Source: Margaritifera margaritifera (taxonomy: Eukaryota; Mollusca; Bivalvia; Unionida; Margaritiferidae). From it: DNA of 64,000 bases. Positions 42,697 to 59,483 of this stretch are shown one piece after another. The stretch is taken from positions 202,001 to 266,000 of the forward strand of contig JAQPZY010001414.1 in assembly GCA_029931535.1 (NCBI GenBank). The letters run 5' to 3'. A model generated the notes under the pieces. That model ran no database searches. It worked only from the letters and a program-made list of their open reading frames with translations, and was not told where the DNA came from. The translations under genes were made by a program, and so were the position numbers. Numbering within the stretch: the stretch's first letter is position 1; each line of letters opens with the position of its first letter.

Positions 42697-42797
42697 GGAC
42701 AGAATAGACACATACACTTAAATTACAAACAAACCAATTTTTTATGCAATCATGGAGTGATCTTTTCTAAGAGATGTGGGTGGCCCTGAAAATGACC
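42697..42797 (-). repeat. Left inverted terminal segment
   Basis: Read on the - strand, this matches 59385-59483 on the + strand with indels. Shared blocks in order are TTTTCAGGGCCACC, a TAGAAAAGAT-ACTC block, an ACCAATTTTTT-type block (AAAAAATTGGT on this strand), a run of TTTGT words, and GTGTATG ending at TCTGTC. It includes the 3' end of the outward-facing left gene. Confidence 0.75.
42782..42797 (-). terminator. Histone-type 3' stem-loop, left gene
   Basis: On the - strand the sequence is GGTCATTTTCAGGGCC followed by ACCCA. It has the 16-nt layout of the replication-dependent histone mRNA stem-loop (GGYYYTTYTCARRRCC-ACC), with one mismatched pair and one G-U pair. It starts 21 nt after the stop of the 42819-43052 gene. 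A purine-rich AGAAAAGA (plus-strand 42761-42768) follows 13 nt later, where the U7-pairing histone downstream element would lie. Confidence 0.55.
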
Positions 42798-42818
42798 GTT
42801 GGAGTTTTGTTAACGAAG

Positions 42819-43052
42819 TTAACACATATAACACCTCTTCATGGGTCTTCTTCTCCTTAAACGTCTACGCACTTCAGGTCCGTAGATGAGCACCCGCTGC
42901 AGACACCCTTGTCTCTCCACATAGATGCGTCTCTTCCAAAGAGCTGTAGCTGTAATATTCGTAATAGCCCATGATACTTTGATGTACATGGGGTAGTCCG
43001 AGTTGAAGAGCATGCCCAATAGGATGCTTGAAGATTCTACGGATGTATACAT
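42819..43052 (-). CDS. Small Arg-rich protein, outward-facing left-end gene
   Basis: A 77-residue frame from an ATG at 43052 to a stop at 42819. The frame stays open further upstream to a TTG, but a TATATATA at 43096-43103 lies 44 nt before the 43052 ATG. That matches the spacing seen at the other genes of this element, so I chose 43052. The protein has a mixed N-terminal half and a strongly basic tail (EVRRRLRRRRPMKRC). I do not recognise a family. It is followed at once by a histone-type stem-loop signal. The basic tail suggests nucleic-acid binding or a nuclear localisation signal, as an inference only. Confidence 0.5.
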   Translation of the reverse strand: MYTSVESSSILLGMLFNSDYPMYIKVSWAITNITATALWKRRIYVERQGCLQRVLIYGPEVRRRLRRRRPMKRCYMC

Positions 43053-43095
43053 CTTTGTCTTGAGAACAGGTGAAAGTATGTCACAAAAACGCTGG

Positions 43096-43103
43096 TATAT
43101 ATA
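43096..43103 (-). promoter_or_regulatory. TATA element for the left - strand gene
   Basis: TATATATA, self-complementary, 44 nt upstream of the ATG at 43052. Confidence 0.5.
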
Positions 43104-43206
43104 GCCTAAGATAGAATCAAAACGGATCGAAATGGTCCACCAATCCAAAGGCGCGTTACAAAAGGGGTAGGATCTCTCTTCCAATCAGAAGAGAGCGGGG
43201 GGGGGG

Positions 43207-43214
43207 TGACGTCA
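43207..43214. promoter_or_regulatory. CRE/ATF-type palindrome
   Basis: A perfect TGACGTCA palindrome after a run of ten G. It lies 8 nt before the + strand TATA and about 104 nt from the - strand TATA, inside the divergent promoter region. TGACGTCA is the consensus site of CREB/ATF bZIP factors. Use by this element is inferred. Confidence 0.5.
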
Positions 43215-43221
43215 CCTTCAG

Positions 43222-43227
43222 TATATA
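43222..43227 (+). promoter_or_regulatory. TATA element for the coiled-coil gene
   Basis: TATATA in AGTATATAGGCG, 51 nt upstream of the ATG at 43273. Confidence 0.5.
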
Positions 43228-43272
43228 GGCGTCACAGCGTTCGTACGGTTTTACCTTTGCGGCATTTTGAGT

Positions 43273-43850
43273 ATGGCTGATACAACGAAGCGGTCAACAT
43301 TCAACCAGACAGATTTTAATTTGGATTTTGTGGATTTTCTGTCGTCGCAAAATTTTTTGCCTGAAACAACTACAGTAGTAGTACCACCTTCCTTACCCGT
43401 TATGGATGATATTAGAAAGAGGCTGAAAGAAGAATTGGAAAACTTTTTGCAGAGTCAGAGAGAAGCAGAAGAAGCATTTCTTCAGCAAGAACAGGAAAGA
43501 AGACAACAAGCAGAAGAAGAAGAGAAGCAGACATCTTTGAAGTGTGAAGGCCAGAAGGAAGGGAGTGATGACAATTTAACGGTGAGTCTGCTACAAGAGT
43601 TAAAGAATCTGAGAAACATGTATCAAACTTGTGTAACTCAACCCAAGAGAAAGAGTTAAAAAATCTGAGAAACATGTATCAAACTTCTGTAACTCAAGCC
43701 AAGAGAAAGAGACCATCACGGGCGAAACATTCTAATCCCATCACATCATCTACGCTCACTACTACTACTGAGATGCTACCACCACCACCATTGACTACTA
43801 CTACTACACCACCTTTACTAAAGCAGCAGCAGCAGGAGGAGGAGGAGTAG
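43273..43850 (+). pseudogene. Acidic coiled-coil protein disrupted by a 56-bp duplication
   Basis: The start is ATG 43273, 51 nt after a TATA box (the frame also opens at an upstream TTG). Residues 1-45 are mixed. From about residue 48 a charged heptad-like region (IRKRLKEELENFLQ onward) runs through a Glu/Gln-rich tract, consistent with a coiled coil. A stop falls at 43657. It is created by a 56-bp tandem duplication (43598-43653 and 43654-43709) that shifts the frame. Beyond it another frame (to 43850) continues with basic KRKRPSR, a Thr/Pro-rich tract and a QQQQEEEE tail. The intact form would have been roughly 170-175 residues. The function is unknown. A histone-type stem-loop lies 85 nt after the final stop. 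Confidence 0.6.
43598..43709 (+). repeat. 56-bp tandem duplication inside a gene
   Basis: Two adjacent 56-bp units starting AGTTAAA-AATCTGAGAAAC differ at three positions. Because 56 is not divisible by three, the second copy is out of frame. Confidence 0.95.
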
Positions 43851-43934
43851 GACTTGGCCGTGGAAAGGGATTGAGGCAGTTAAAACTCATTATGTCCAGT
43901 CCATGGGTTTGTTTTAAAAAACAAACACCCCAAC

Positions 43935-43950
43935 GGTCCATTTCAGGACC
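43935..43950 (+). terminator. Histone-type 3' stem-loop, coiled-coil gene
   Basis: GGTCCATTTCAGGACC followed by ACCCA. Five perfect pairs close a TTTC loop with one mismatched pair at the loop base. CAAC precedes the stem, as in many invertebrate histone genes, and AGAAAAGA (43964-43971) follows 13 nt later. This copy is not part of the terminal inverted repeat, yet it shares about 40 bp with it. Confidence 0.6.
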
Positions 43951-43971
43951 ACCCACATTTCTTAGAAAAGA

Positions 43972-44159
43972 AATCAAATTGCCAAAATCAAGTAAAACTT
44001 AAAACCGATCATTGGATTGTGTATGAGTTCGTGTGTGCTTCCATACTCTAAAACAAAATCAAAACCAAGAGACACTTAATATTTTCCTTTTTTGTATATT
44101 CTCTTTTTAAAAATCACAATGCACATTTCATAACACATCACTCAAGTTCAATTTTTCTT
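43972..44159. other. Intergenic spacer
   Basis: I see nothing coding or structured here. It is the convergent space between the coiled-coil gene and the - strand zinc-knuckle gene. Confidence 0.5.
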
Positions 44160-44586
44160 TCACTGTCGGTCTCTCTTTGTGAATTTTTTGACAGGCATCA
44201 TGGGTTCTTCCTCACTGTCTTCCAGTCGTCTTGCCTTCTGACATTTCTTGTCGACGGGGATGGGTTCTTCTTCTGTTTCTGAAGAGCCCTCTGCCTCCTC
44301 CCTCTCTTGTTTGTTTTCTTGTTTCTTAGGACACTCTGAAGACCAATGTACTTTTTCTTGACAATTATAGCATGTATCTTTCCCATTGTCTCTGTTTTCT
44401 TTTCCTTTACTTTGACGTTGTGGACATTCTGGAGCCCAATGTCCTTTATCGTGGCAGATATAGCAAGTATATTGACTTTTATATCGAGAAGAGGAGGAGT
44501 AGTCCTTAGTCTTACTGAAAGCGGTATACTTTCTTATGACTCTGTAAATTTCTGACCAGAAAGGCGATTTGTCTTGACTTTTCCAT
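44160..44586 (-). pseudogene. Tandem CCHC zinc-knuckle protein, minus strand
   Basis: The - strand frame ending at TGA 44160-44162 is open back to 44588 and encodes two CCHC zinc knuckles. The first is CYICHDKGHWAPEC (about 44460-44420) and the second CYNCQEKVHWSSEC (about 44370-44330), both C-x2-C-x4-H-x4-C. An acidic then basic tail follows. Such knuckles bind single-stranded nucleic acid. No ATG precedes the knuckles in this frame. An ATG at 44586, 56 nt from a TATA element shared with the polymerase promoter, opens a different frame that stops after 24 codons, so a frameshift near the start is likely. Splicing is the alternative. It is unusual as a reverse-strand gene between + strand genes. 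Confidence 0.6.
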
Positions 44587-44641
44587 CTTCACAGTTTGAA
44601 AGTTGAATAACGAATAGTTACTCGGAGGGTAAGAAGCTCTT

Positions 44642-44689
44642 TCTATATATAGGGAGAGAGCCTTTTCTATATATAGGGAGAGAGCCTGT
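44642..44689. promoter_or_regulatory. Duplicated TATA block, divergent promoter
   Basis: A 24-bp block with CTATATATAGGGAGAGAGCC occurs twice in tandem (44642-44665 and 44666-44689). TATATATA reads the same on both strands. The right copy (44668-44675) is 49-56 nt before the polymerase ATG (44724). The left copy is 56 nt from the - strand ATG at 44586. It probably serves both genes. Confidence 0.55.
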
Positions 44690-44723
44690 GTAAAACTAAA
44701 TCATATTAAAGTTGGACATCAAG

Positions 44724-47700
44724 ATGAAACGATCACACCATTTCATTGAGATAACAGAAGAAACTAAGAGACCACGACGGCGACTTTCCGTGCCGCCTCA
44801 TACGCCGCTAGCTGAAGTGTTAGCCCAAGTTCATGTCAGTGATTTTGAAGAGGACATGAGTGAGTCTGAAACCATAACTTCCACAAGACCAAGAGAATCC
44901 AGAGCCCCTAAAAAAGAAAGTCGTTCCGTAGCTCCCGAAAATTACTATCACATTCGAGAGACCCAAAAAGTAACATCCAGAAAATTTAGATCCACGGCTT
45001 ACACTTACACGGTCCGCTTTAAAGACTTCAAGTCTGAAGTGCCCCAAGAGAAAGCCGCAGGCTTCATTACCGATTTGTGTGATTCTTTGTTAGAAACATT
45101 GAAACGGCAATGCGGAGCCAAATAGGACGATCGGTTGAGACTTTCCATCCTGTCTGGATCGAGTTCAGTACGCCGGCAGAATTAACACCGTCTAAAGTCA
45201 TGGACAAAATTGAACACTTTCAACATATCCAACGACGAGTTTACAATCACCAATGGAAAAGCCACACTTCACATGACCCACGTTTCACCTCCTAGAGGTA
45301 GCGGACCACGCAAAGTGTTATTGGTGGACGACCTTCGCAGTACCAAACGCAGTATCGTCCAGGTGTTTCGAGGACCCAATTTCCCCTAGGGAAAATACAT
45401 TCACGTGTATCATCATCAATAACATCAATAACATTTCGATGCCATCACTAGTATCATTAGATTTCTTGGATACGCTAACTACTGCGAGAAATGTGACAAA
45501 CGATTTTGTAGTCGGGACAAACACATTCATTGTGGAGAGAGATGTCGGGGCTGTTTAGCTTCCACACCATACATTCCTGCAGAACACATTCATTGTTCGA
45601 CGTGTCAACGAACCTTTGTCAGTTCCTCTTGTTACGAACAACATCGTAGGACACAAGCTCACCAACAGAAAGTGCTTGTGAATTATTGAGATTGTGCTCC
45701 AAGTGTGGACAACTAATTCGAACCAATAACTCCTAGGCACACGTTTGTGCCGGAAAGAAAAGATGTCGTATTTGTGACCAAATCGTAGACTTTGAACATC
45801 AATGTTACATTCAAAAATATAACAACGAACTGGTGAAAGAATTAAAGGGTGATTAGCAGCAAAAGAAGAACAAGACAAAAGTTGATTTTATCTTTTTTTA
45901 CTTTGAATGTATGCAAGAAACGGGTATTCACATCCCCAGTTTCTGCGTTCCTCATCGGGCTTGTGAGAAGTGCATACAGGAACCTATCTATTTTCACTGT
46001 CCTCATTGTAGTAAGATTCCAGGAGGACGCGAAAAAATCTTTCCGATTTTGCCCAATGGATCTTAGACCCTATCGACGACACTTGGAGCGAAGAGGACAT
46101 TCAACGTTACGGGGACTGTCATCGATATGCTACCGTCATGGCTCACAATTTCTCGGGATACGATGGACAGTTTCTTCTAAAATATTATTCAGAACAAGGC
46201 ACCGAATGCCCCAAAGTCACCATGAACGGAGCCAAACTCATCTATATGAAAGTGGGGGAAGTAAAATTCAAAGATTCCATGAATTTTTTTACCATGCCTT
46301 TGAGTCGAATGCCTAAAACATTTGGAATGACAGAAATGGCCAAAGGGTATTTTCCCCACTTTTTCAATACCGAAGCCAATCAACACGTAGTGCTTCCGCA
46401 TGTGCCTGACATTGACTATTACGATCCCGATGGGATGCACACCGAACACAGAGAAGCCTTCTACGCTTGGCACCACGCTCACGCTTCAGACCCGTTTGAC
46501 TTTCAAGAAGAAATGCTGAAGTATTGCCGATCCGATATGGACATTTTACGCCGTTGCTGTAGAAAGTTTCGACAATTATTTCTGGATCACGGAGAAGTCG
46601 ATCCTTTGAAGGAAGCGTGTACCCTAGCCAAAGCGTGTGGATTAGTGTACAGAAAAAAGTTCATGCCCGAGAACCAACTAGCCATCATATACCCTAACAC
46701 TTATCTTTCGGTCAGCCGCCAATACTCGTCGAAAGCTTTGCGTTGGTTGCATTACTTGTGCAAAAAGGAAGACACATGGATACAGCATGCGAGAAACGCA
46801 GGGGGGGGGGGGAAGAAAATTGGAAGTCGTTCTGTGAATGGCTGGGATTTAGAAAACCCTCAGACGGTGCACGAATTTCAGGATGGTTGTTTCACGGATG
46901 CCCTACCTGTTTTTCTCAACGAAACCTACAAAGTCCTTTTTCAGAGTTCACCGTGGAAGAGTTATACGAACACACATACCAAAAGCGTCTGAAGTTAGAA
47001 AGTCAAGGATACCAAGTGGTAGAAATGTGGGAGCACGAGTACGATCGACGTTTCAAAACCGATCCAGAATTTAGACGCATTGCCGAAAGTTACGACGTAG
47101 TAGACATCGAACATATGGGCCCACGCCACAATTTGTTTAGAGGACGAACCAATGCCACACGCTTGCTGTACGACGTAGACGAATCTCGAGGAGAAAAAAA
47201 AATCAAATACATCGACGTGTGTTCGTTGTATCCTTGGGTGTGCAAATGTAAGCGATTCCATACCGGACACCCTGAAATTTTGACAGAACACATCGAACGT
47301 GGAACACTTTCGTCAATACGAAGGATTGATCAAATGCAAAGTCTTACCAACGACCCATTTGTACCATCCTGTCTTACCCTATCATTGCCAAGGAAAACTG
47401 ATGTTTCCTGTATGCGGTACGTGTGCTGAAACATGTAATCAAGATCACCCTTGCCACCACACGGAGGAAGAGCGCGCTTTGACAGGAACGTGGGTCAGCG
47501 TCGAATTGTTTCGGGCTCTGGATCGGGGATACAGCTTGTTGAGAGTATACGAGATTTGGCACTTTTCCTACCACAGCACAATACCAATAGGACGACGCCT
47601 CGAATCCAGGTATTTTCTCAAGCTACGTCAACGAATTTCTCAAACTGAAACAAGAAGCCAGTGGCTATCCCTCTGGATGTCAGACGCCAGAAGACTAAGT

Positions 47701-48560
47701 CCAATTCAAAGAACAGTTTCGTTCCGTAGAAGGTATCACTTTGGAAGAAGTAGAAACAAACGACGGAAGAAGATCGTTTGCCAAAGTCATGTTGAATTTT
47801 TTGTGGGGAAAATTGGCACAAAGTCCGATTTTGCCCAAGACGGAATACTTGGCAGATCCCAGTCGCTACTTTCAACTGGTAGACGACAAAATCAAAACCC
47901 ATGAAACACGTGGAAATCATCCGTGAAGATTTGATCTTGGTGAATTACGAAGAAGATCCTAAGTTTGTTCACCCCGACGGCTTTTGCAATGTGGTCATTG
48001 CAGCCTCCTTGAATGCTCGCTTAAAATTGTACGATGGGGCTTTAGAAGTGTTGGGAGATCGAGTCCTGTACTTTGACACCGACAGTTGTATGTACATCAA
48101 TCTCCCTGGTTGCCAACACCCCACCATCGAAGGAGATCGTTTAGGGGCATGTACGGACAAACACCCTCAAGAGACGATCCTCAGTTTTACCAGCGGTGGA
48201 TCTAAATATTACGGCTACCGATACCGAGACCAACAAGGCCAACTCCATACCAAATGCAAAGTCAAAGGATTGAGACTGAATTATCGAGCCAGTCAAGTGG
48301 TGAACTTTGATATCTTGAAAAATGACTTACAGTCTGGACAAGATCAAGACTTTCGAGTGAAAACTTAACAACCCCACAAAATCGTGCGTTTGACAAACCA
48401 CCAAATCGTCAGTCGCCCTTTAGAAAAAGTTTACCAAATTGTGTACCAGAAACGAGTGCGACTTCCAGACCACACCACTTTGTCGTACGGACACACCAAT
48501 CTTCGGTATAAAAAGGGACAACTTCCAAGACCAAGAATTCATTGTGACTACAAACGTTGA
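44724..48560 (+). pseudogene. Protein-primed family B DNA polymerase (Polinton pPolB), broken
   Basis: The element's replicase, about 1,280 codons from ATG 44724 to a stop at 48558-48560. Exonuclease parts are visible: AHNFSGYDGQFLL (Exo II, about 46141) and YCRSDMDILRR (Exo III, about 46525). Polymerase motif A is YIDVCSLYPW (about 47210), motif B lies around VMLNFLWGKL (about 47788), and motif C is YFDTDSCMYI (about 48069). The N-terminal part has a YTVRFKDF segment and a Cys/His-rich region (about 45480-45650). A stop at 45123 ends the first frame. 45125-46130 is riddled with stops, and further frame changes occur near 46880, 47300, 47600-47740 and 47900. The last stop-free stretch ends at 48366. 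A 12-G run at 46801-46812 is a slippage-prone site. Protein priming is inferred from the family. It is non-functional as it stands. Confidence 0.9.
48507..48516 (+). promoter_or_regulatory. TATA element for the BIR gene
   Basis: TATAAAAAGG inside the end of the polymerase gene, 72 nt before the ATG at 48579. Confidence 0.5.
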
Positions 48561-48578
48561 CCGAGCAAGAAGAAGAAG

Positions 48579-49218
48579 ATGAATACTAATTCCACACAGC
48601 CACCGAGTGATGAACTCACTGTGAACTTCAAGTTCAATGTGGAGACCAGTACACAGACACCGATACTGACGAACTCGACACAGCCACCGAGTGAGGAACC
48701 TACTGTGAACTTCAAGTTTTATCACGACCTCGAGTGTGATGCGGTGCTTTGCGACGAGACGGATGCCGTACGCTTTGATATCAACGATGCAGCTTGCCGT
48801 TCCCCTGGGACCATCGAACGCGATGCCGTTCGTGTGCCTTACCGCTCCACTGGCGAAAGCGATGTAGCGCGACGCCCTTTTTTCTTTATTGGTCAATGTG
48901 ATGCTAAGCGTGTACCTACTTGTTGATGCCATCCATTCACTGGCAAAGAATTCATATTGGCTGTGGCTTTGCCTGGCTATTGTGACTTTGAAAGTCGATT
49001 CCAGACGTTCAAAGATAAATGGCCTAAATATCTGCAAGGACATACTTCCAAAGCATTAGCCAGAGCTGGATTTGTCTCCTTGGGAGAATGCGATAAAGTT
49101 CAGTGTTTCAGCTGTGGTGACACTTCACGAATGGGAGTATAAAGACTCAGCTTACTTGGAACATTCCAGATGGTCTCCGCGCTGTCAGTCCCTGCCTTTG
49201 GTTGGTCCAAAGATGTAA
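48579..49218 (+). pseudogene. BIR-domain (IAP-like) protein, broken
   Basis: The start is ATG 48579. The N-terminal half has two copies of an NSTQPPS-E-TVNFKF block (residues about 4-20 and 31-48), then a low-conservation region. The C-terminal half is a single baculovirus IAP repeat. It has R-x2-TF-x3-WP near 48990-49020, an AxAGFVSLGECDKVQCFSC stretch near 49068-49118, and then H-x6-C near 49165-49188. Spacing of the zinc ligands fits C-x2-C-x16-H-x6-C. An in-frame TGA (48924-48926) separates the two halves, and a frame change near 49119-49130 lies inside the domain before the His and last Cys. BIR proteins bind caspases or other partners and can block cell death. The role here is inferred. 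No RING finger was seen. Confidence 0.75.
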
Positions 49219-49219
49219 T

Positions 49220-49694
49220 ATGTCGGATAAATTACAAGAGCACATTCCTTGTTTGCCTTTAGAGCTGCGAGAATGCATTTACAGAAAGTTGGTCCAGATT
49301 CAAGTGAAACGCAAAGAACAATTGCATCCTTTACGACATAGACGTTTTAACCATTGGTATCTGAATGGTATAAAAGTACTAATTAGTTTCAAAGTATTCA
49401 AATTGTCAGACATTCATGATGGACTAGATGACACCTTTAAGAGTTTGGATGGTAGCACCTACAATGTGACACTGTTACACAGAATTCGATGGAACGAAGT
49501 TCAGGAAAAAGTGACAAAATTAGAGGAATACAAAACTTTTAAGAGAAGTGTCACCTCAAGAGGAAACACCTTCACGCCGTTTGAGGTGTAGAAAGGTAAT
49601 CATTGAATGTCTTGGATATCCTTTACCATCTGATTCCATTTGGCAATTGTGTGGCTATTTCATCAAGAAGAAAGACGTGCCTGTAAATGACTAG
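49220..49694 (+). pseudogene. F-box-like protein, paralogue 1
   Basis: The ATG (49220) comes one base after the BIR gene's stop. The N-terminus has LPLELRECIYRKLV, resembling an F-box or SOCS-box start (LPxEL-x3-I-x3-L). A second block, RIRWNEVQEKVTKLEEYKTF, lies at about residues 90-110. The frame stops at 49589-49591. A frame change after the second block would lead into a stretch with KVIIECLGYPLP that ends at 49694 and overlaps the next gene's start. The duplicate gene that follows supports a real family. An adaptor function with ubiquitin ligases is a guess from the motif. Confidence 0.5.
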
Positions 49695-50046
49695 TTTAGA
49701 GGAGCACATTCAGAATCTGTCTTTGGAGCTGCAAGAACGCATTTACAGAGAGTTTGTCAAGATACAAGCGAAACGCAAACTCAGTCATTTCTCGATTTAT
49801 AAACTATTGCAATTTCCACAGTATAAGAAGACTGATCCTTGGGAGAAACTATCACAGACGCCTTGGGGTAGACTATTACCAAAGATACAAACCTTGTGAA
49901 CCTGGATATAAAAGCTGACCATGCCAGGACCGTTGTCTTCACTCCTGGAACGAATTCCGTGGAAGGAAGTCAATGATAGTGTTGAGACCTTGGAGGATTA
50001 CAGACTACTGATACACAAACTGTTTCCATTGTGGTGTGTGTGTTAG
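49687..50046 (+). pseudogene. F-box-like protein, paralogue 2 (split)
   Basis: ATG 49687 opens a frame with LSLELQERIYREFVKIQAKRK, clearly paralogous to LPLELRECIYRKLVQIQVKRK of the previous gene. It stops at 49897-49899. A second frame (49921-50046) carries RIPWKEVNDSVETLEDYRLL, paralogous to the second block of the previous gene. The two parts therefore belong to one protein now separated by stops or a frameshift. Its ATG overlaps the presumed stop of paralogue 1. Confidence 0.55.
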
Positions 50047-50058
50047 TGACTACTTTTC

Positions 50059-50418: not shown

Positions 50419-50554
50419 TCATCCAAGACAAGAACACGTTAACTTAGAACCAAAGTCAAAAGTAATTTTTTTGTGCTTGATGTATTTTTTCGTGTTTCAA
50501 GACATGTGAATATGTTTTTTGTTTTTGTTTAAAACATTAAACGTGTATGAAACG

Positions 50555-50560
50555 TATAAA
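50555..50560 (+). promoter_or_regulatory. TATA element for the packaging ATPase
   Basis: TATAAA, 54 nt upstream of the ATG at 50609. It lies within the upstream extension of the open frame, which supports 50609 rather than 50519 as the start. Confidence 0.5.
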
Positions 50561-50608
50561 ATGTCTTGTGTCTTTCGTGTTCCTCTCAACATTCTCCATA
50601 TCTCAGTC

Positions 50609-51334
50609 ATGGCTGCATCCTCCTCTTCCTCCTCTTCTGTTGTCAAAGTGATTGACGAAAAGTTAGATCGTCAAAGTTGGGAAGCTTTGTATCTGCGCCA
50701 TCCTTTTAACATGTTGATTGCTGGACCGAGTGGTTCAGGCAAAACCGAATTTGACAAACGTTTGATCGAACAAAAATCTCATTTGTTTCATCGTCCCCAT
50801 CAACGTATCGTGTGGTGTTACAAAGAGAGGCTATCGTCTTACACCTTGCTTCAAGAAAGTCAAGGAGAATCCATTTCGTTTGTCGAAGGCATTCCTCGCG
50901 AAGACGATGGGATCGTGTCTGACTTGAGTCAAACACATCTGGTCATCTTCGATGACATGTTAGGAGAAGACGAAGAAGAAATTAAACTTTGGTTTACACG
51001 AAAAGGACATCATCGTAATGCCAGTATCATTTACATTACTCAAAATTTATTTCAACGAAGTAAAGCCGATCGTACCATCAGTCTCAATGCCTATTATGTG
51101 GTGTTGTTTAAAAGTCCCAGAGACAAATCTCAAGTGCAAGTGTTAGCCAAACAGTTAGGCACTCCTTGGCTAAATTATGCGTACGACGATGCCACTCAAA
51201 CACCTCATGCGTATTTACTCATCGATTTAAAACCCACCACTCCCGATTATTTGAGATTTCGTACCCAATTGTTTCACCATTGTTGTCAAAAAGTAGGTCC
51301 AATCATTTACACGTCCCCTTCGGCAACTATCTAA
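50609..51334 (+). CDS. Genome-packaging ATPase (FtsK/HerA, A32-like)
   Basis: A 241-residue intact frame. After a Ser-rich N-terminus come HPFNMLIAGPSGSGKTEF (Walker A, GPSGSGKT, residues about 39-46) and then THLVIFDDML (Walker B with acidic DD, about residue 114). IIYITQNLFQR at about residue 148 is the sensor-like strand with a Thr-Gln-Asn, typical of the A32 group. The length suits the Polinton ATPase. It is expected to pump element DNA into capsids. It is one of the few undamaged genes here. The start was chosen from the TATA spacing; an upstream in-frame TTG is less likely. Confidence 0.9.
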   Translation: MAASSSSSSSVVKVIDEKLDRQSWEALYLRHPFNMLIAGPSGSGKTEFDKRLIEQKSHLFHRPHQRIVWCYKERLSSYTLLQESQGESISFVEGIPREDDGIVSDLSQTHLVIFDDMLGEDEEEIKLWFTRKGHHRNASIIYITQNLFQRSKADRTISLNAYYVVLFKSPRDKSQVQVLAKQLGTPWLNYAYDDATQTPHAYLLIDLKPTTPDYLRFRTQLFHHCCQKVGPIIYTSPSATI

Positions 51335-51341: not shown

Positions 51342-51348
51342 TATAAAA
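51342..51348 (+). promoter_or_regulatory. TATA element for the basic core-like gene
   Basis: TATAAAA immediately after the ATPase stop, 93 nt before the ATG at 51435. Confidence 0.4.
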
Positions 51349-51434
51349 ACATCCACCACGTCATTTCGTTCCCACAGTCTTCAAGATTACTTCCTTTCAA
51401 TCTCATCCTCCTGCCAAATTGATTCGTGGCCTGT

Positions 51435-52246
51435 ATGGCATCAGTCGCGAGAAAAAATGCACAAGTCCGTGCCCATTTGTTAGAAGCTAGTCTCAAAGAA
51501 GTTTTACGATGGTTGACTTTGACAGCACGTCAGTTACTTCAAGGCATCATTCACGTTTTTTTTGAAAAACATAAAAGTGCGTTGTCACAACTGGCAGATC
51601 CAAGAATCGATCCAAACACTAAAAAACAAATCATTTTCACACCTGGTGGTAGTGGTTCTTTAGGAGGTGTCATGATTCGTTCTCTTTTGAAATGGGATCC
51701 TAATGTCCAAGCCAAAACCAAGAAAAAGAAAAAAAACAAATCCCCTCAATGTCGACCACATACAACTACCACACACAAGAAAAAGAAAAGCCCCAAGAAG
51801 AAAAGCCCCTCCAAGAAAAAACCCAAAACAACATCTCCTGCTGCCAAAAGAGAGGTACTGCTGCTAGGATGCTCACGTACTCCCGAAAGCCACGCAGTGT
51901 GGTGACTGTGTCTCCTTCTCCGTCCACTTCTGCTTCTACTTCTTCGCCATTCGTGATGATGCCTGCCAAACCTAATTTAAGACCCGTGTTGCCTAATTTG
52001 ACTCTAAAATAGAAACCTATTTCGAAAGACACTTCTCTGGTGGCCTCTACCTCAGCTCCTCTGGCCACTGCGGCTGCCGCTAAAAAAGTGGCCTCACCTA
52101 AAACCAAAGTCCAAGGCAGAACAGGCGTGTTAAAAAGTTTACTGGATTTATCCAAACAAGAACTGACACGATTTAGTCCGTTGAAAACACCTCATCGTCG
52201 AGTGATGCCTATCATAAAGTTGAAACGTCGTGGTGGCCGTCAGTGA
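51435..52246 (+). pseudogene. Basic, Lys-rich core-like protein, broken
   Basis: The ATG at 51435 opens a frame with a globular-looking N-terminus (LLEASLKEVLRWL...) and a PGGSGSLGGVMIRSLL segment. A long Lys/Ser/Pro/Thr tract follows, resembling histone H1 tails or virus core proteins. That frame ends at 51903. Another frame takes over near 51840-51880 and continues, interrupted by a TAG at 52010, to a TGA at 52244. Its C-terminus, VLKSLLDLSKQELTRF to KLKRRGGRQ, is basic. The total would be about 270 residues. DNA condensation inside the particle is inferred from composition and from its place among virion genes. Confidence 0.55.
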
Positions 52247-52259
52247 AGACGAGTTCCAG

Positions 52260-52265
52260 TATAAA
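52260..52265 (+). promoter_or_regulatory. TATA element for the pX-like gene
   Basis: TATAAA, 60 nt upstream of ATG 52320 and 13 nt after the preceding gene. Confidence 0.45.
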
Positions 52266-52319
52266 AAAGAAGTGTGGCATCAGAATGACCTCAGTTCTAT
52301 TTTGCTCCTGACACCAAAG

Positions 52320-52748
52320 ATGGCCTCAAAAAGTGCACATCACCAACAAAACCCTAGTCGTCCCAAGAAAGGCAAAACCAAAACAGGACCTCCACCTCGT
52401 CTCGCCAAACATTGGAATGTGTTGTCCGTCCTGAATAAATCCAATCCTCCCATGCGAAAACAACTCATTCAAACAGCCTCGAAAGAAATCATCGATACCG
52501 TGTGTGAATGTTGTTTGAATGTGTTGAAAGGAACGGTGCATTTGTCCAAGATACACAAACAAAAATTAGGAAAACATCGGAACGTTCTTTGCCAAATGGT
52601 CAAAAAGAAAATACCTTTCAGTCAAAAGAAAAAAATGCTGGTGGAACGAGGAGGATTTCTACCCAAGCTGATAGAACCGTTGTTAACAATAGCGGCTCCT
52701 TTGTTAGGAACGATTGTTGGACCTCTTTTAAGAGGAGTCATGAGATAA
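52320..52748 (+). CDS. Adenovirus pX-like conserved Polinton/adintovirus protein
   Basis: A 142-residue intact frame starting at ATG 52320, 60 nt after a TATA; an upstream extension to 52230 is less likely. The protein is basic. It has the pattern I know from many Polintons and adintoviruses: R-x-LI-x2-A-x3-I-x2-x-C-x2-NVLKG, then K-x3-L-x3-R-x-L, then KKK-x5-K-x-x-L. A final GGFLPKLIEPLLTIAAPLL segment is hydrophobic and glycine-initiated. In adintovirus literature such proteins are compared with adenovirus core protein pX or other membrane-active minor virion proteins. That assignment is tentative. Confidence 0.65.
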   Translation: MASKSAHHQQNPSRPKKGKTKTGPPPRLAKHWNVLSVLNKSNPPMRKQLIQTASKEIIDTVCECCLNVLKGTVHLSKIHKQKLGKHRNVLCQMVKKKIPFSQKKKMLVERGGFLPKLIEPLLTIAAPLLGTIVGPLLRGVMR

Positions 52749-53088
52749 AGACGAGAAGAAAGAAAGAAGATAAAAAAGACACCCATCTCTGGAAATACAG
52801 CACACTTGTACCTTTGGATCTTATGGAAGGACGAAAACTGTCTTTAGTTTCTTACTTAGTTGGTACGAACAACGGATACCTCATTTACCTCCCAATCCTA
52901 ATCTCAACGAGATGTCACAGTTACAACAAGAATTACAATCGTTCATGGATCGAAGTTATTTGTCAGAAGCAGAAAAATCGTAACGCTACGGTCAACTATT
53001 TCAACGTCTTCAACTCTTTCACCAGAAAGCTTTAGACGAAACAGCTAAACCCACTCTGAGAGACTTCAAGGCCATGATGAAAAACTAA
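52749..53088 (+). pseudogene. Small conserved Polinton-type protein, decayed
   Basis: The region after the pX-like gene holds remnants in two frames: YSTLVPLDLME near 52797-52832, then LQQELQSFMDRSYLSEAEKS near 52919-52980. A stop (52980-52982) and further coding-like sequence follow to a TAA at 53086. I recall a family next to pX-like genes in metazoan Polintons with the same architecture (LVP-x-DL near the start, then L-x2-LD-x2-M-x-x-IL-x-LS-x-x-EK-x3-Y). It is at best a broken member. Function unknown. Confidence 0.4.
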
Positions 53089-53150
53089 CCTAAAACCACC
53101 AAGACAGCAGACACCGCCATTGAGATGACAGAAGAAGACGACACACGAGA

Positions 53151-53450
53151 ATGTTTCAAACTCCATCTGCTCCCATACCTAGTAAGATTGCAGCTTCCTT
53201 GTTGACACCCTCTCCTACGCCTCAACGAGAAGAAATGAAAGCTTGGGTTGAAAAGATGATGTCCACCCCTTCTTCAGCAGAAGACAAAGAGAAAAAAGGG
53301 AAGACAGAAGTGAAAAAGACATCAAGAAAAAATTCACCACTTCACAACCAACTCCTGTGGCTCGTCGGACGCGTCAAGTTTCGTTAAAACCTTCCTCACT
53401 CCACGACTTCAAAAGTAGTAGTATCGAACAGTGGGTGACTTATTTAGCAG
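53151..53450 (+). pseudogene. Pro/Ser/Lys-rich remnant before the integrase
   Basis: ATG 53151 opens a 78-codon frame rich in Pro, Ser, Glu and Lys, ending at 53387. After an A-rich stretch (about 53326) another frame continues with ARRTRQVSLKPSS. This looks like the low-complexity basic tail of the preceding small protein, or a separate linker gene. I recognise no domain. Confidence 0.35.
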
Positions 53451-53462
53451 TAATAAAAAAAC

Positions 53463-54568
53463 ATGAAGTCACTTTTAGCGAGCATTTACTACAATCATAC
53501 ACATGCTGCTGGTTACGGAGGAGTTCAAAAATTGTATAGGGCATCTAAAAGCAAATTGAAAAGTGTACGTTTGCCAGAAGTACGACAATGGTTACAAGAA
53601 CAATCGACGTACACGTTTCACAAACCCATTCGACGAAAATTGTCCAGAAGTCAAACCAAAGTGGCTGGCATCGATCATCAATGGCAAGCAGATTTAGCTG
53701 ATGTCTCTCATTTGTCAACGTACAATCGTGGTTACAAATATTTGTTTTGTGTCACTGACGTGTTTTCCAAATTTGCTTGGGTCGTTCCTTTGACTTCTAA
53801 AAGCAGTGCCGAGTTAGTACGCGCTTTAAAACTTGTGTTGAAACAAAGTAGTCGTAACCCTTTACGATGACAAACAGACAAAGGTACCGAATTTTTAAAC
53901 CAAGATTTTCAAAAAGAATTGAAACAACGCCACATTCATTTTCGTACCACTGAAAATCCTGAAACCAAACCCAGTGTCGTGGAACGTTTTCAAAGAACTT
54001 TGAAAGAACGCATGTGAAATATTTTACACATCAACACACTCTCAAGTACATCGACGTGTTACCACGTTTGGTCAAAGCTTACAATCAATCGTACCATCGT
54101 AGCATCGGCTGTGTCCCCGAAGATGTCACCCCTGAAAACAAAGTCAAGGTGTTTGATCGATTGTTTGGTACACCTTAGACTGGACACAAGAAAGCCGTGG
54201 TGCTCAAGACGGGAGATTGGATTTGCATTGGAACAAACAAACGCACTTTTGACAAAGGTTATTTACCTAACTGGACTACCGAATTGTTTCGTGTCAATGG
54301 ACAGGTGCGTGTACGTGATCCTCCCGTCTACAAATTGGAAGACATGCACGGAGAAGTGTTAAAAGGAACTTTTTACTTGCCAGAGTTACAACGAGTGACC
54401 AAAAAAGAAGACTACTTGTACGATATCGAAAGCATTCTAGATCGAAGAACACGTAAAGTAGGTAAACGTCGAGTGGAAGAAGTCAAAGTGCGTTGGAAAG
54501 GATATCCTCCTAGTTTTGATTCTTGGATTGCCGCTTCCAAAGTCGTAGACTATAAAAAAAAGAAGTAA
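53463..54568 (+). pseudogene. Retroviral-type integrase with C-terminal chromodomain, broken
   Basis: The DDE integrase of Polintons, which inserts the element into host DNA. ATG 53463 starts with a YYNHTHAAGYGGVQKLYRA stretch typical of this class, in place of the retroviral HHCC zinc finger. The core shows the first Asp in HQWQADLADV (about 53694) and VTDVFSKFAWVVPL (about 53753). The second Asp is in TDKGTEF (53877 onward) and the Glu region is near ENPETKPSVVERFQ (about 53950-53990). The C-terminus (about 54413-54545) is a chromodomain with YDIESILDRR and VRWKGYPPSFDSW. Breaks are a TGA at 53868-53870, a stop with frame change at about 54015, and a TAG near 54177. The chromodomain may steer insertion to methylated-histone chromatin, as known for chromoviral integrases. 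Confidence 0.92.
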
Positions 54569-54670
54569 CCAACACGCCGTTCAACACAGCAGCTACCTTT
54601 TCTTCACAGAGTTCCTCTCTTTAAAAATTACAAAAACAACCTTTGTGGGTGTGGGGCGGAGAACGTGTGA

Positions 54671-54985
54671 CTAAAAATCAAATCGTCTTTTTTCTGCCAA
54701 ATCTTTGTGGTGTATTGTGTCATCGGAGCAGCGATTGCCAATCTGAGTCTGCAACAAGGTGACAAACAATTGTGGACCATTTTACTCAGCAGTTGCATCG
54801 GTTATCTTCTGCCTAGCCCTTCCATGAAATACAGTAACAACAACAACAACAACCACAACGGTGAGACCAACGCCAGTCATTCTTCTTCCAGTCACAACAA
54901 CAGTAGGCACCTTTTGGAACATTTTGAACATCATTCTCCTTTGACAACGAGTGACTCCTCGGACACCAGAACCCTCGAACTATGA
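54671..54985 (+). CDS. Small membrane protein, start uncertain
   Basis: The frame is open from 54671 and overlaps the minor capsid ATG by 4 nt (ATGA at 54982). It has a hydrophobic segment VVYCVIGAAIANLSL and a second one, LWTILLSSCIGYLLPSP. A low-complexity tail rich in Asn, Ser and His follows. A short protein with an SC-GYLLP-P segment directly upstream of the minor capsid gene is something I recall from other Polintons, with unknown function. No ATG precedes the hydrophobic part in this frame, so the true start is lost, non-ATG or frameshifted. Confidence 0.5.
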   Translation, partial: LKIKSSFFCQIFVVYCVIGAAIANLSLQQGDKQLWTILLSSCIGYLLPSPSMKYSNNNNNNHNGETNASHSSSSHNNSRHLLEHFEHHSPLTTSDSSDTRTLEL

Positions 54986-55857
54986 ATAACCAATTTTATT
55001 TAACCTTACCCAGTTATATGGATGTGTTTCCCAACAACACCTTATGTTGTTTCACGGCCAAATTACCTCAGTCCATACAATTGGATCACGAATCTCATTG
55101 GGAAGTGGCTTTGGTAGAAATCGTTCATCCTACGCAAATTTGGAATGTGTCTGGAGATCAAACCACTTTTGTCGTCGAAATCCTGAACGAACAAGTGCAA
55201 GAACACTTGGACAAAAAAGATCCTGGCTTTTACGAATCTGAAAGACCAGCACCGGCCAATCCTCAATTAAGTATATATCTCATGAGAATTCCTGCAGGCT
55301 ATTATTTTAGTGCTCGACATCTGGTGGACACCATTGCGGCCATTTTCAATGACCAGTTTGGCAAAGCCCTGGTCAAAACCAAGAAAAGTGTCCTGATCGA
55401 GTATCATGATATTTCTCACCATGTAAAAATGCATTTTTTGGACGCCAAAATATTTCCCATCACTTTTGCTCCTGAGTTATTGGCTACCAAAGACATCAAC
55501 AACAACGATCGATTTTATAAGCATTTTCGCTACACAGTCAAATTGAACGAAAGGCTGAATTTATTATTTGTGTACTCCGATGTGGTGGAGTACAACGTGG
55601 TGGGAAACACAGCCGCTCCGTTACTGAGAGTCATTCCTTTCAAAGTGGATTCTGCCTTCGCTGTGTACGAGGTAGGTGGAAACACGTATCACGTTCATAG
55701 TGAATTTGTACATCCTCATTATCTTCCAGTCAGTGAATCGTATTTTGACTGTGTTAACATTAGTATTAAAGGAGATCTGGGACCAAATATTCTATTCTCT
55801 AAAGGAAAATTCATGGTGAAACTACATTTTCGAAAAAGGTTCTCCAGCGAATTGTAA
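54982..55857 (+). CDS. Minor capsid protein (penton-like)
   Basis: A 291-residue intact frame. It begins MNNQFYLTLPS, then FPNNTLCCFTAKLPQSIQL, then WEVALVEIVHPTQIWNV. This N-terminal signature (FY-x-TLPS-x-NTL-x-F-T-KL, then WEV-L-EI-P) is highly characteristic of the Polinton and adintovirus minor capsid protein, predicted to be a single jelly roll occupying the capsid vertices. The ATG overlaps the preceding frame. It is followed by the pVI-like gene after 6 nt, so a virion cluster with co-ordinated expression is likely. No damage was seen. Confidence 0.9.
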   Translation: MNNQFYLTLPSYMDVFPNNTLCCFTAKLPQSIQLDHESHWEVALVEIVHPTQIWNVSGDQTTFVVEILNEQVQEHLDKKDPGFYESERPAPANPQLSIYLMRIPAGYYFSARHLVDTIAAIFNDQFGKALVKTKKSVLIEYHDISHHVKMHFLDAKIFPITFAPELLATKDINNNDRFYKHFRYTVKLNERLNLLFVYSDVVEYNVVGNTAAPLLRVIPFKVDSAFAVYEVGGNTYHVHSEFVHPHYLPVSESYFDCVNISIKGDLGPNILFSKGKFMVKLHFRKRFSSEL

Positions 55858-55863
55858 CACAAG

Positions 55864-56300
55864 ATGTATCCTGTGTACCGAGGAGTTGCTCGACAACGAG
55901 GACATGGTTTAGGAGATATGTTAAAATCTGCTTTTCGGACGGTAGTCCCAACCTTGAAACCCATGGTGACTCGAGGATTGCATGCCTTAGAAGATGCCGC
56001 TTTGACGCAAGGAAAATAATTTCTTAAATACTTCCTCATCGACAAACAAAATCCTAAAGAAGCCTTTATGAGAGCAGGAAAAAATGCGTTGCTGCGGACT
56101 GGAAAAGATCTTTTGGGTCGCCGAGAGACTACTATAAATTAGTGTCACACTTCTGGCCCTGGCATAACTTCTTCCTCAACGCCACAGCAAGGACAAGGCA
56201 GAAAGAGACGTCGACATCCTTCAGAGCTCATAAACACGGTGTTCCGAAAAAGAATAAGAAAAGAAGAACTGTCAGAGAATTAGACGTGTTTGATTACTAA
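55864..56300 (+). pseudogene. pVI-like minor virion protein, broken
   Basis: It starts at ATG 55864, 6 nt after the minor capsid stop. The N-terminus RQRGHGLGDMLKSAFRTVVPTL has the GxGLG-x2-x-FR-x2-PxL form of an amphipathic membrane-active segment, seen next to the capsid genes in Polintons and comparable to adenovirus pVI. Stops interrupt the same frame at 56017-56019 and 56140-56142. After the second stop a basic GRKRRRHP segment continues. A frame change just before the end gives the short DVFDY terminus at 56298. Location and N-terminus support the call. Function is inferred. Confidence 0.65.
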
Positions 56301-56317
56301 CTGTGACACACACAAAA

Positions 56318-57629
56318 ATGATGCACCGAGATTCTTGCGAATGTACCAAGTCATTACTGGATCTGTTTGCCATGCCACCTACCATGACGACGATGCAAGA
56401 CTCCCAATGGGTAGAATTTCATCCTGTGTCGTCTTTGACGACAGCAACCCCTATCGAATTTGAAATCAAAGGACAAACCGAAGATTACATCTATCTGAAT
56501 AGCAGTCACTTGTACCTGAAACTCAAAGTACTCAAAACGGACAATACCAATCCTGGGGCCGAGGCCAGAGTAGCACCCGTCAATAATTTAATGCATTCGT
56601 TGTTCAGTAAAGTTGATTTGTACTTGAATAACAAATTGGTCAGCAGCAGCATGGATACTTACCCTTACCGTGCTTACTTGGAAAATCTCTTGACGTACGG
56701 AAAAGAAGCCAAGAATATCCATCTGGATGATTCCGTGATATGGAAACCTGACACCTCGGAAAAGTTCAACGACACAGAGTTGCGTGCAGATAATGGTACA
56801 GACGAGCACAATGTGGGATTTAACGACCGTCAAAAGAAAATCAGACAAGGGCTCACTTTAGAACTGATGGATCGTTTGCATTTGGACATGTGGTTGCATG
56901 ACAAGTATTTGTTGAACGGAGTGGATGTACGCCTGAGACTGAATCGCAGTAGTACCGTCTTCCATTTGATGGCTAATGCGAACGAGTACAAAACCATCAT
57001 CGAAGAAGCCAGACTTTACGTGCGCCGTGTAGAAGTGTTACATAAAATATCCAACGACATCAGTCAAACGTTGAGCAGAACCACCACCAAGTATCCTGTG
57101 CGATGAGTGGAAGTGAAAACGTTTACCATTGCCTCTGGACTCCGATCCAAAGTCGAAGAGCATGTGTTCCAAGGACAGCTCCCCAAACGTTTGCTTATCG
57201 GCATCGTCAGTAATGCAGTCCTCAACGGAGGCATCGATCAAAATCCTTTCGACTTTCAACACTTCAATGTCTCGAAGATAGAAGTCACTCGAGATGGTCA
57301 GAGTCAGACCTTTTGAACCTAACTTTGCCCAGAAAATTTACTTGAGATCTTACTGTACTCTGTTTGAAGCCACCGGACTGTTAGGCTCCAACAGCAGCCA
57401 CGGCATTTCGTACGAGGATTATGCAGGATGATATGCTTTGTGGGGATTTGATTTCACTCCTGACAAAGACAGCGACGAAGGACATTTCCACCCTATAAAA
57501 TCAGGCCAACTTCTTGTGGAACTTCAGTTTGCCACAGCTCTCGTCAACACCGTGAACGTCATCTTGTATGCAGAATTTGACAATACTCTGGAAATCAACA
57601 GTTTGAGAGAAGTGATTCGAGACTATTAG
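56318..57629 (+). pseudogene. Major capsid protein (hexon-like, double jelly roll), broken
   Basis: The principal shell protein, about 437 codons from ATG 56318 to TAG 57627. The N-terminus runs through SQWVEFHPVSSLTTATPIEF and then a characteristic YIYLNSSHLYLKLKV and VAPVNNLMHSLFSKVDLYLN. These are the conserved first-jelly-roll strands of Polinton capsid proteins (D-L-x-x-t-x-L-x-V, N-L-HSLF-V-x-L-N). YPYRAYLENLLTYG follows at about residue 113. The second jelly roll starts after about residue 245. The C-terminal part (57438 onward, GFDFTPD) ends LREVIRDY. Breaks are a TGA at 57104-57106, a frame change near 57310-57320, and a TGA at 57429-57431. The first 262 residues are intact. Confidence 0.9.
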
Positions 57630-57634
57630 AAAAG

Positions 57635-58144
57635 ATGCAACACGAAGAATCTATGGAGATGGAAGATGAGGGATTTTGGGATCTAGAAGAACCACAGCAG
57701 GCACTAACCACAAATGAAAAAGAAGAGAAAAGTAGTCGGAACAGTAGTGTTACAAAGTGTAATGCATTTATGCAATGTAGATGGCCAGAATAAGAACAAC
57801 ATTTAGTCTCCTGTTTTGTTACGGATTTGGCTGAAAGAATTGCAGCCCTGACCAGAGAACATTGTTATGGATGTCAAATCAATCATCCGAGTAAGAAACA
57901 ACACGACAAATGTTTGATGATGAGTGCAGAAGAAAAATTGGAAGAGTATCTGGATGAGGCATGGTCTCTGATCTCAGAAGAAAAGGTGTTGATAAAGTGG
58001 TATAAAGACTTGCAGGATCGTTCCTCACCTTCATCTCACTTCTCTGGAGACCCAACGCATCGAAGCTCTCTTGCAACAGAGTACAGAGACTACCCGTTCA
58101 TCGACTTACTTGACAGACATATTCAAGCACAAAATCAGGTGTGA
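57635..58144 (+). pseudogene. Conserved Cys/His Polinton protein
   Basis: ATG 57635 opens 5 nt after the capsid stop with an acidic N-terminus. A TAA at 57791-57793 interrupts the same frame. It then continues to 58144 with a conserved block CYGCQINHPSKKQHDKCLMM followed by a helical LEEYLDEAWSLI region. I know the C-x-x-C-x3-HPS-x3-H-x-CL block as a recurrent, uncharacterised protein encoded next to capsid genes in metazoan Polintons. It looks like a metal-binding module. The ATG may instead mark a separate short gene. Confidence 0.55.
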
Positions 58145-58179
58145 ATTGATGACTTATCATTACCTGTGAAAACAAAATG

Positions 58180-58508
58180 GATACCTGGGAACATCATTAC
58201 CTGTTGACTGGCAATTCGTACAACGCTTCTTGGAATCCTGTGGTTCTAAAAATGAACTTCCACATCGCAAACCTAAAGTCGTTCAAGCCTATGTCATCAA
58301 TATCGACGACTGTGATCGATCAGGAACCCATTGGGTGGCAGTGTACTTTCCTAACGATCACAGTGTGGAATATTTTTATTCTTATGGATTACCTCTTTTG
58401 GAAGACGACATCATTGACTTTACAAAATGAAATGCTGTCTCTACTCGATTCAATAATGTGAGATTACAAGGATCAGATTTCATCAAAGCTGTCTTGGATT
58501 TCCCTTAG
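58180..58508 (+). pseudogene. Adenain-like maturation protease, missing the cysteine region
   Basis: A cysteine protease that would process virion proteins. The frame around 58230-58430 has KPKVVQAYVINID and then GTHWVAVYFP, with the catalytic His in the GTHW motif. The acidic position lies in the VEYFYSYGLP segment, as in adenovirus-type proteases. A TGA at 58428-58430 interrupts. Beyond it a NNVRLQGSDF stretch keeps the conserved LQG that precedes the active-site Cys, but the expected C-G and helix do not follow; the frame ends at 58506-58508. The start is not defined. The gene is inactivated both by stops and by loss of the cysteine segment. Confidence 0.75.
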
Positions 58509-58827
58509 AACATTTAGTGACTTGTTATGATAGGGAGTACGCTAGAAACATTGCAAAAATAGAAAGATTGTTTTATGAACATTATGGTTATATTTTGTCT
58601 TTAGCTCAGAAACGTAGTGTGCATTGAGGGCAAAATGATTTAGAACAGTGGAAGTCCAGTTTAACTTCACAACGTTGTCAACCCTGTAAATACGTTCATG
58701 TTTAAAAAAATGTGTGTTTGTATTTTGTGTTAGAGACGCTTCTTATTGTTGATTAAAAAAATGTAGATGTTTTGAAAAAAATGTGTCGTGTTGTTTATGG
58801 ATTGAATTTTGTTTTAGAATGTATATG
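58509..58827 (+). other. Leftover coding-like sequence and spacer
   Basis: 58512-58626 is open in one frame, with a helical YDREYARNIAKIERLFYEHYG stretch, but has no start codon and no family I know. It may be a protease tail or a broken small gene. 58705-58827 is T- and A-rich spacer. Confidence 0.35.
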
Positions 58828-58890
58828 TTCACATTTCTCTCTATCGATCTGAGGTACCTACTCTTTCACATTTCTCTCTATCGATCTGAG
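58828..58890 (+). repeat. 26-bp direct duplication upstream of the right-end promoter
   Basis: A 26-bp block containing CACATTTCTCTCTATCGATC occurs at 58828-58853 and again at 58865-58890, 37 bp apart. It lies 33 nt before the TATA element of the Q-rich gene. A duplicated promoter element is possible. Confidence 0.85.
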
Positions 58891-58922
58891 TCATGTTTTC
58901 CATCGCGTCCGCGCTTCCAGCA

Positions 58923-58928
58923 TATAAA
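58923..58928 (+). promoter_or_regulatory. TATA element for the right-end gene
   Basis: TATAAA in GCATATAAAGCGG, 58 nt before the ATG at 58981. Confidence 0.55.
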
Positions 58929-58980
58929 GCGGTGCCTTTTGCCAGTCGGGTCACTCTCGTTGACTCGTCAACACCTCAAC

Positions 58981-59358
58981 ATGACTTCGAAGATTGGTAA
59001 ACTAAATAAAGCGATGGTGAACATGCAGCGAGTTAGACATAACCTGATTCGGAAGAACCCAGAGAAGAAGACGATGATCTTCCTGCAAATGGCCCAAGAT
59101 CTGGTGGAAGAAGTTTTGCGAGAAGAGATCATCAGGGACAGAGCGGAATGGGAGGAGAGACAAAGACTGCAGCAGCAACAAGGGCAGCAACAACAACAGC
59201 TACAACAACAACTCTTGCAGCAGCAGAAGCAACAAGAAGGAGAAGTGTCCTGTAAGATGGACTGTGAGGCGTTTGCCTTCTCCTTCACAAGAAAGCGTCC
59301 TTGTCCATCGGCAGTGAGACCTGTGGTGAAACGTGACCGTCCTGCTGCCAGAAGTTAA
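58981..59358 (+). CDS. Gln-rich coiled-coil protein, outward-facing right-end gene
   Basis: A 125-residue intact frame from ATG 58981, 58 nt after a TATA box and a duplicated upstream element. The basic N-terminus (KIGKLNKAMVNMQRVRHNLIRKN) is followed by a long charged helix (MAQDLVEEVLREEIIRDRAEWEERQ), a Gln tract of about 30 residues, and a basic Arg/Pro tail (RKRPCPS, KRDRPAARS). The layout (charged coiled coil, Q tract, basic tail) is reminiscent of the left-end coiled-coil gene, but I see no alignable similarity. Function is unknown; regulatory or DNA-associated is a guess. It is followed at 27 nt by a histone-type 3' signal. Confidence 0.65.
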   Translation: MTSKIGKLNKAMVNMQRVRHNLIRKNPEKKTMIFLQMAQDLVEEVLREEIIRDRAEWEERQRLQQQQGQQQQQLQQQLLQQQKQQEGEVSCKMDCEAFAFSFTRKRPCPSAVRPVVKRDRPAARS

Positions 59359-59384
59359 ACTTCTAAACAACAACCACTGGCAAC

Positions 59385-59400
59385 GATACTTTTCAGGGCC
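59385..59400 (+). terminator. Histone-type 3' stem-loop, right-end gene (decayed stem)
   Basis: GATACTTTTCAGGGCC followed by ACCAAGA. The 3' arm, loop and ACC are consensus, but the 5' arm has mismatches. AGAAAAGA (59413-59420) follows 12 nt later, at nearly the same spacing as in the other two copies. Confidence 0.45.
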
Positions 59401-59483
59401 ACCAAGATCTCTAGAAAAGATTACTCTATGAAAAAATTGGTGTGTTTGTATGTTTGTATGTTGAGTGTATGCTTGTATCTGTC
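59385..59483 (+). repeat. Right inverted terminal segment
   Basis: The counterpart of 42697-42797. The similarity ends at TATCTGTC (59483); sequence beyond this does not match the left side. It includes the 3' processing-like signal of the Q-rich right-end gene. Confidence 0.75.

Follow-up and report, generated by a model that had tools for sequence, protein, structure and literature searches.

The accessory genes of one Polinton (Maverick) lineage in Margaritifera margaritifera very probably carry functional 3′-end signals of the kind known from replication-dependent histone mRNAs, and would use the stem-loop binding protein (SLBP) and the U7 small nuclear ribonucleoprotein (snRNP) of the host for the maturation of their transcripts. 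The lineage was recognized in a 64-kb window (contig JAQPZY010001414.1, positions 202,001–266,000; the window is the whole stretch of DNA analyzed, to which all window coordinates refer), where a decaying element contains three sites that are likely to belong, in degraded form, to a large set of such signals. Each unit of the set directly follows a small accessory gene, close behind its stop codon, and consists of a 16-nt histone-type stem-loop, usually followed by ACCCA, of an AAAAGA element at a distance of 14 or 15 nt, and usually of TTGCC about 26–40 nt from the stem. In their signals, spacing, position, orientation and spread, and in their match to the host, the units are like histone 3′ ends. 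The observation of a preliminary description of this DNA, which had noted three such sites, was confirmed, and its interpretation as histone-type mRNA ends is supported; at the level of sequence it was right, and relatives of the element speak for it far better than the window itself does.

Histone-Type 3′ Ends in the Window

A pattern search of the whole 64 kb for TTTCAGGRCCACC followed by AGAAAAGA returned three sites, at 42791 (− strand), 43941 (+) and 59391 (+), and no further one, so that the positions first reported were found to be the sole occurrences. Under a first-order Markov null, TTTCAGGRCCACC was matched once in 300 simulated windows vs. three times in the single window observed, a comparison in which the three sites have to be read as related copies and not as independent events.

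The internal 3′ end (43930–43983, +) consists of a stem-loop at 43935–43950, in which the arms GGTCCA/AGGACC are paired at five of six positions, followed by AGAAAAGA at 43964–43971 and TTGCC at 43979–43983. In the left 3′ end (42758–42802, −) the stem-loop is located at 42797–42782 and AGAAAAGA at 42768–42761, and the arms GGTCAT/AGGGCC also form five of six pairs, including one wobble. The right 3′ end (59385–59420, +) is degraded, with only four of six pairs between the arms GATACT/AGGGCC of the stem-loop at 59385–59400 and with AGAAAAGA at 59413–59420. The Rfam model of the histone 3′ stem-loop (Histone3, RF00032; gathering score 34 bits) gave 27.2 bits for the internal copy (E = 0.0005 over 4,227 Rfam families), 20.5 bits for the left copy (E = 0.15) and 12.2 bits for the right copy.

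Two of the three sites lie directly behind the genes to which they had been assigned, the stop of the left small basic protein gene being 21 nt and that of the right Q-rich gene 26 nt before the stem-loop. For the third, a coiled-coil gene, the open reading frame (ORF) stops 275 nt before the internal stem-loop; this stop falls inside a 56-nt tandem duplication (43595–43706) within the gene.

Spread of the Units in the Genome

A pattern made of the loop, the 3′ arm, ACC and TAGAAAAGA was searched in the genome (2,453,371,941 bases) and gave 1,652 exact matches (803 + 849), and the reversed pattern gave 0. This pattern fixes the loop and leaves the 5′ arm free, and in an even sample taken as every fifth of 100 listed matches (n = 20) all six stem pairs could be formed in 20 of 20, wobble allowed. 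AAAAGA was found at 14 or 15 nt in all 20 and TTGCC at 27–35 nt in 17, and 19 were preceded in sense by a gene of one of the element families (coiled-coil, nine; Q-rich, seven; left, two; gene4, one), the exception being L026. That the sites of a degenerate window resemble histone ends by chance, for which the low Rfam scores and the mismatched stems of the window might speak, was rejected by the reversed-pattern control and by the pairing of the free 5′ arms, and the probability that we leave to it is close to nil.

All 75 places scored in a genome scan with RF00032 (75 of 508,685 first-look candidates) were above the gathering score, and none was seen near any of 150 listed histone-fold matches when the two were compared by eye, the only shared contig having them more than 40 kb apart. 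Thirty loci were cut for the best RF00032 matches, although they are not 30 independent places, L037 overlapping L056 and L039 overlapping L059. A window-element ORF was matched in 24 of them, and the other six (L033, L034, L042, L048, L051, and L052) carried gene4 or gene5 only. Matches to the model in related elements, which the preliminary description had asked for, were thus obtained, yet among 17 other element loci eight matches (34.0–44.6 bits) were confined to seven loci.

Among the 20 loci L011–L030, 19 matched window-element ORFs (L021 did not), and five (L012, L019, L022, L027, and L029) showed matches to the polymerase, ATPase, integrase, penton-like or capsid-like genes. None of the 30 loci L031–L060, each only 3 kb long, showed matches to these core genes. 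On another contig, L016/L017 repeats the architecture of the window, with two opposite-strand stem-loops about 1.1 kb apart and a third one 16.2 kb from the internal one, and L017 has an additional stem-loop behind a gene5-like ORF. Gene4 and gene5 are two more accessory genes that were observed in other subfamilies of the element (L021, L022, L027, L029, L030, and many of L031–L060) and not in the window element; gene4 is linked to core genes in L022, L027, and L029.

Position Relative to Genes and Structure of the Units

An anchor that ignores the 5′ arm gave 87 candidates from the collected loci and the window. Six stem pairs were formed in 69, five in nine, four in six, and three, two and none in one each. 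Four candidates judged by eye to be unrelated (L055:1998, L012:179, L029:65, and window:14857, with 0, 2, 3, and 4 pairs) were dropped, leaving a set of 83, in which identical sites count once.

The nearest upstream match of the 83 was the left small basic protein gene in 27, gene4 in 27, the coiled-coil gene in nine, gene5 in nine and the Q-rich gene in eight, and only three had none, so that 80 of 83 follow one of five families, which are mutually dissimilar by BLASTP (the best cross-match having E = 0.057). In 54 of the 83, the end of an ORF of 60 codons or more lay no farther than 97 nt upstream, in 49 of these at 10–36 nt, vs. three of 83 in the antisense control. The concern that the 40-bp block might be an unrelated repeat scattered in the host is answered by this difference. 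No stem-loop was found within 300 nt downstream of the 24 core-gene pieces compared, a weak sample in which many ORFs are broken and one lacks downstream sequence; the feature therefore appears to be restricted to some of the genes of the element.

The placement also bears on a motif acting at the level of DNA, such as an integrase end-binding site or a part of the terminal repeat, that would resemble a histone stem-loop by accident. Two of the three window copies do lie within a terminal repeat, as had been described, but this repeat is weak, a 92-column match at 77% identity being all that was found, and no 6-bp target duplication was recognized by eye. The third window copy is internal, the units follow genes in sense at a short and narrow distance from the stop, and the same layout is present in the histone genes of the host, all of which makes a DNA-level motif very improbable. 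An explanation by terminal repeats only was ruled out by the internal, gene-linked copies.

Within the units, AAAAGA began 14 nt after the stem end in 65 of the 83 and 15 nt after it in the remaining 18, and TTGCC followed 6–19 nt past AAAAGA in 76. The loop was TTTC or TTTA in all but one, and ACCCA directly follows the stem in most copies. Pairing was present in 91.9% of the cells of the alignment, vs. 11–58% when the partner was slid by 1–3 columns. Stem pair 4 was C-G in 55 of the 87 candidates and U-A in 20. The compensatory substitutions that had been looked for do exist, C-G being replaced by U-A in stem pairs 3 and 4 (two-sided changes in two pairs), but they are too few to exceed a shuffle control, in which the covariation score was reached by 142 of 500 shuffles and the number of paired cells by 192 of 500. 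Covariation cannot serve as a test here since the motif is too conserved.

The mean pairwise identity was 0.83–0.93 for the stem-loop vs. 0.31–0.45 for the ungapped flanks, figures based on an older gene grouping with some sites misassigned where two such genes adjoin. They are relevant to the view that a histone 3′ end was once captured by the lineage and has spread by copying as a passenger without present function. The strong likeness of the block across copies, its resemblance to host flanks and the covariation at the level of shuffles would fit such a passenger. However, a passenger would not be expected to be kept so much better than its flanks, or than the matched proteins, which are 34–85% identical to those of the window, to have the same placement in five gene families, or to be followed in most copies by ACCCA, which none of the eight host 3′ ends compared has, and we consider this view improbable.

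AATAAA was present within 200 nt downstream in nine of the 83, and the background was 11.9%. These copies, together with the roles of SLBP in translation and decay, in which it is also active, could indicate a function other than processing, in which the stem-loops would be decoys for SLBP, or elements for the stability or translation of mRNAs that are polyadenylated all the same. AATAAA is, however, no commoner near the units than in the background, and a decoy needs neither AAAAGA at a constant distance of 14 or 15 nt nor TTGCC, both of which are kept much as in the host histone genes; such a function is regarded as unlikely.

Comparison With Host Histone Genes

The histone genes of the host are arranged as tandemly repeated units, each about 8 kb long. 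One repeat (L061; G000:C642:603000–611000) encodes H3, H4, H2B, H2A, and H1 on one strand, each gene being ended by a stem-loop. Eight host 3′ ends were compared (H3 three times, H2B twice, H4, H2A, and H1), and all eight have the stem-loop and, 13–15 nt from the stem, an AAAAGA-like element, in a looser pattern than in the element (AGAAGA in H4, AAAAGG in H2A). The 3′ end of a host H2B gene shows the stem, TAGAAAAGA with its AAAAGA core at 14 nt, and TTGCC at 34 nt. Exact TTGCC was found at 33–35 nt in four of the eight ends (H4, H2A, and both H2B), and looser forms in three (TTGTC in H1, ATGCC or AGGCC in two H3), with nothing recognized in the remaining H3. By its matching stem-loop, downstream element and spacing, the layout of the element unit is that of the host itself. 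The TTGCC block (L061:2618–2670 and relatives; window 43979–43983) was noted as a possible extra site for U7 pairing or for another factor.

Seven host histone stem-loops scored 36.1–40.6 bits with RF00032 and the second H2B (L063) fell below the cut-off, whereas the best element copies reached 44.6 bits. The loops of host H3 and H4 are TTTT, and the host stems are followed by ACACA, ATACA, ACTCA or ATCCA. Over the 22 nt after the stem, the identity between element copies and the closest flank of a host gene had a median of 0.73 and a maximum of 0.82. ACCCA, which most element copies have, was present in none of the eight host ends, which makes a recent copying of one of these histone genes unlikely. 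No histone-fold match was seen in the element loci among the matches listed. Elsewhere in the genome (G000:C668, C751, C1281, C349, and others), histone-fold copies that contain in-frame stops were observed in tandem, perhaps as histone pseudogene arrays.

Predicted Use of the Histone Pathway

In animals, the stem-loop is bound by SLBP and the downstream element by the U7 snRNP, and the transcript is cleaved to give an mRNA without poly(A) (PMC6303110, PMC5011920). By analogy, host SLBP would bind the stem-loop of the element transcripts, the U7 snRNP would pair with AAAAGA, and the histone cleavage complex would cut between the two. The accessory mRNAs would then end in the stem-loop instead of a poly(A) tail, and their synthesis, translation and stabilization would be largely confined to S phase, the time at which the element can replicate. 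In a wider version, the whole Polinton lineage would depend on the histone mRNA pathway, not only with its accessory genes but perhaps also with the rightward core genes, as 3′-coterminal transcripts ending at the right stem-loop, so that its messengers would lack poly(A) and would be made and kept only in S phase. This version is put forward tentatively, as we consider it somewhat less probable than its opposite.

Several points weigh against the use of the histone pathway by the accessory genes. All three window copies are below 34 bits, the Rfam scan of the window at gathering thresholds gave no match, and no stem among the three is perfect. Ten of the 17 other element loci were without an RF00032 match above the cut-off. 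The loci of the 83 copies were mostly picked by pattern or by RF00032, which biases the set to good copies. The covariation at the level of shuffles and the core-gene pieces without a stem-loop, both described above, also count against this use. The comparison covers one genome only, and the canonical stem-loop pattern gave 0 matches in viral contigs. U7 RNA was not matched by RF00066 among the 65 places scored of 776,085 candidates, a result that does not show absence, as no control genome was positive. Finally, it is from what is established about histone mRNAs that the use of SLBP and U7, the absence of poly(A) and the coupling to S phase are inferred.

A loose stem-loop pattern gave two matches in the viral contigs, which had no pairing 5′ arm and were judged by eye to be due to chance.

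The Window Element and Its Genes

The window element is a decaying Polinton, with its polymerase and its integrase in pieces in different frames. At its left end, the small basic protein gene is a listed ORF at 42819–43184 (−), and the broken coiled-coil gene follows at 43273–43659 (+). DNA polymerase B is broken at 46138–48368 (+), with a match to PF03175 on the first piece (E = 5.8e-15) and no Pfam family on the piece 47901–48365. A packaging-type, Pox_A32-like ATPase is encoded at 50519–51334 (+; PF04665, E = 2.5e-07), and an integrase with rve core, also broken, at 53463–54568 (+; PF00665 on the first piece, E = 7.4e-06, which is below the curated cut-off). The ORFs at 54982–55857 (+) and 56303–57106 (+) are candidates for the minor capsid (penton) and the major capsid gene, respectively, both named from gene order; no Pfam family was above the cut-off for either of them. 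A search of the protein database gave 146 relatives of the former at E 0.001, and no histone-type stem-loop was found within 300 nt past the stop of its relative in L012. The right Q-rich gene is located at 58981–59358 (+).

Neither the Q-rich gene nor gene4 had relatives in the protein database at E 0.001. No relatives were found for the window-element proteins in viral contigs, for the penton alignment in prokaryote genome contigs, or for the capsid ORF in phage records. The median ratio of nonsynonymous to synonymous substitution (dN/dS) was 0.17 for the left gene and 0.20 for the Q-rich gene, values that carry little weight, as each comes from two usable pairs.

Between the divergent left and coiled-coil genes (43080–43260), TATA-like sequences, two CCAAT boxes and TGACGTCA were recognized by eye, which gives this region the look of a shared two-way promoter. 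A depletion of AATAAA over the window element, which would have pointed to an absence of poly(A) from all of its mRNAs, was looked for and not seen (three vs. 4.1 expected on the + strand, five vs. 7.5 on the − strand).

Relation to Known Systems and Significance

The units are like the 3′ ends of replication-dependent histone mRNAs in the letters and the pairing of the stem-loop, in a flank of the ACC(C)A type, in AAAAGA at the spacing of the host and in their place just past the stop of an uninterrupted ORF. They differ in that the genes concerned do not encode histones but are the small accessory genes that a virus-like mobile element carries, and the likeness is one of sequence. The element shares DNA polymerase B, an rve integrase and an A32-like ATPase with Polintons/Mavericks and adintoviruses, and about 16.7 kb lie between the outer units of the window element, but the lineage of the window stands apart by the histone-type 3′ ends that its terminal and accessory genes have. 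Among the titles and abstracts listed from the open-licence literature, there was no description of histone-type ends in Polintons, adintoviruses or transposons. Viral histone genes (PMC9145170) are comparable in that a virus-like element uses part of the histone system; there, however, it is a protein that is encoded, whereas the Polinton lineage would use an RNA 3′-end signal, and that review makes no mention of a stem-loop, SLBP, a hairpin or polyadenyl- terms.

We know of no earlier mobile element or DNA virus that gates its expression through SLBP and U7, and the lineage would, if the proposal is true, be the first one to our knowledge. The signal otherwise marks histone mRNAs, and its many copies behind genes of a virus-like element would break this rule. 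The units of the element also form a natural variant set from which the requirements of SLBP and U7 may be read, and, if the proposal holds, RNA-seq based on poly(A) selection could miss the transcripts concerned. These results suggest that the element borrows the histone pathway of its host, which would tie the expression of its genes to DNA replication and provide a direct and testable link between the element and the host cell cycle.

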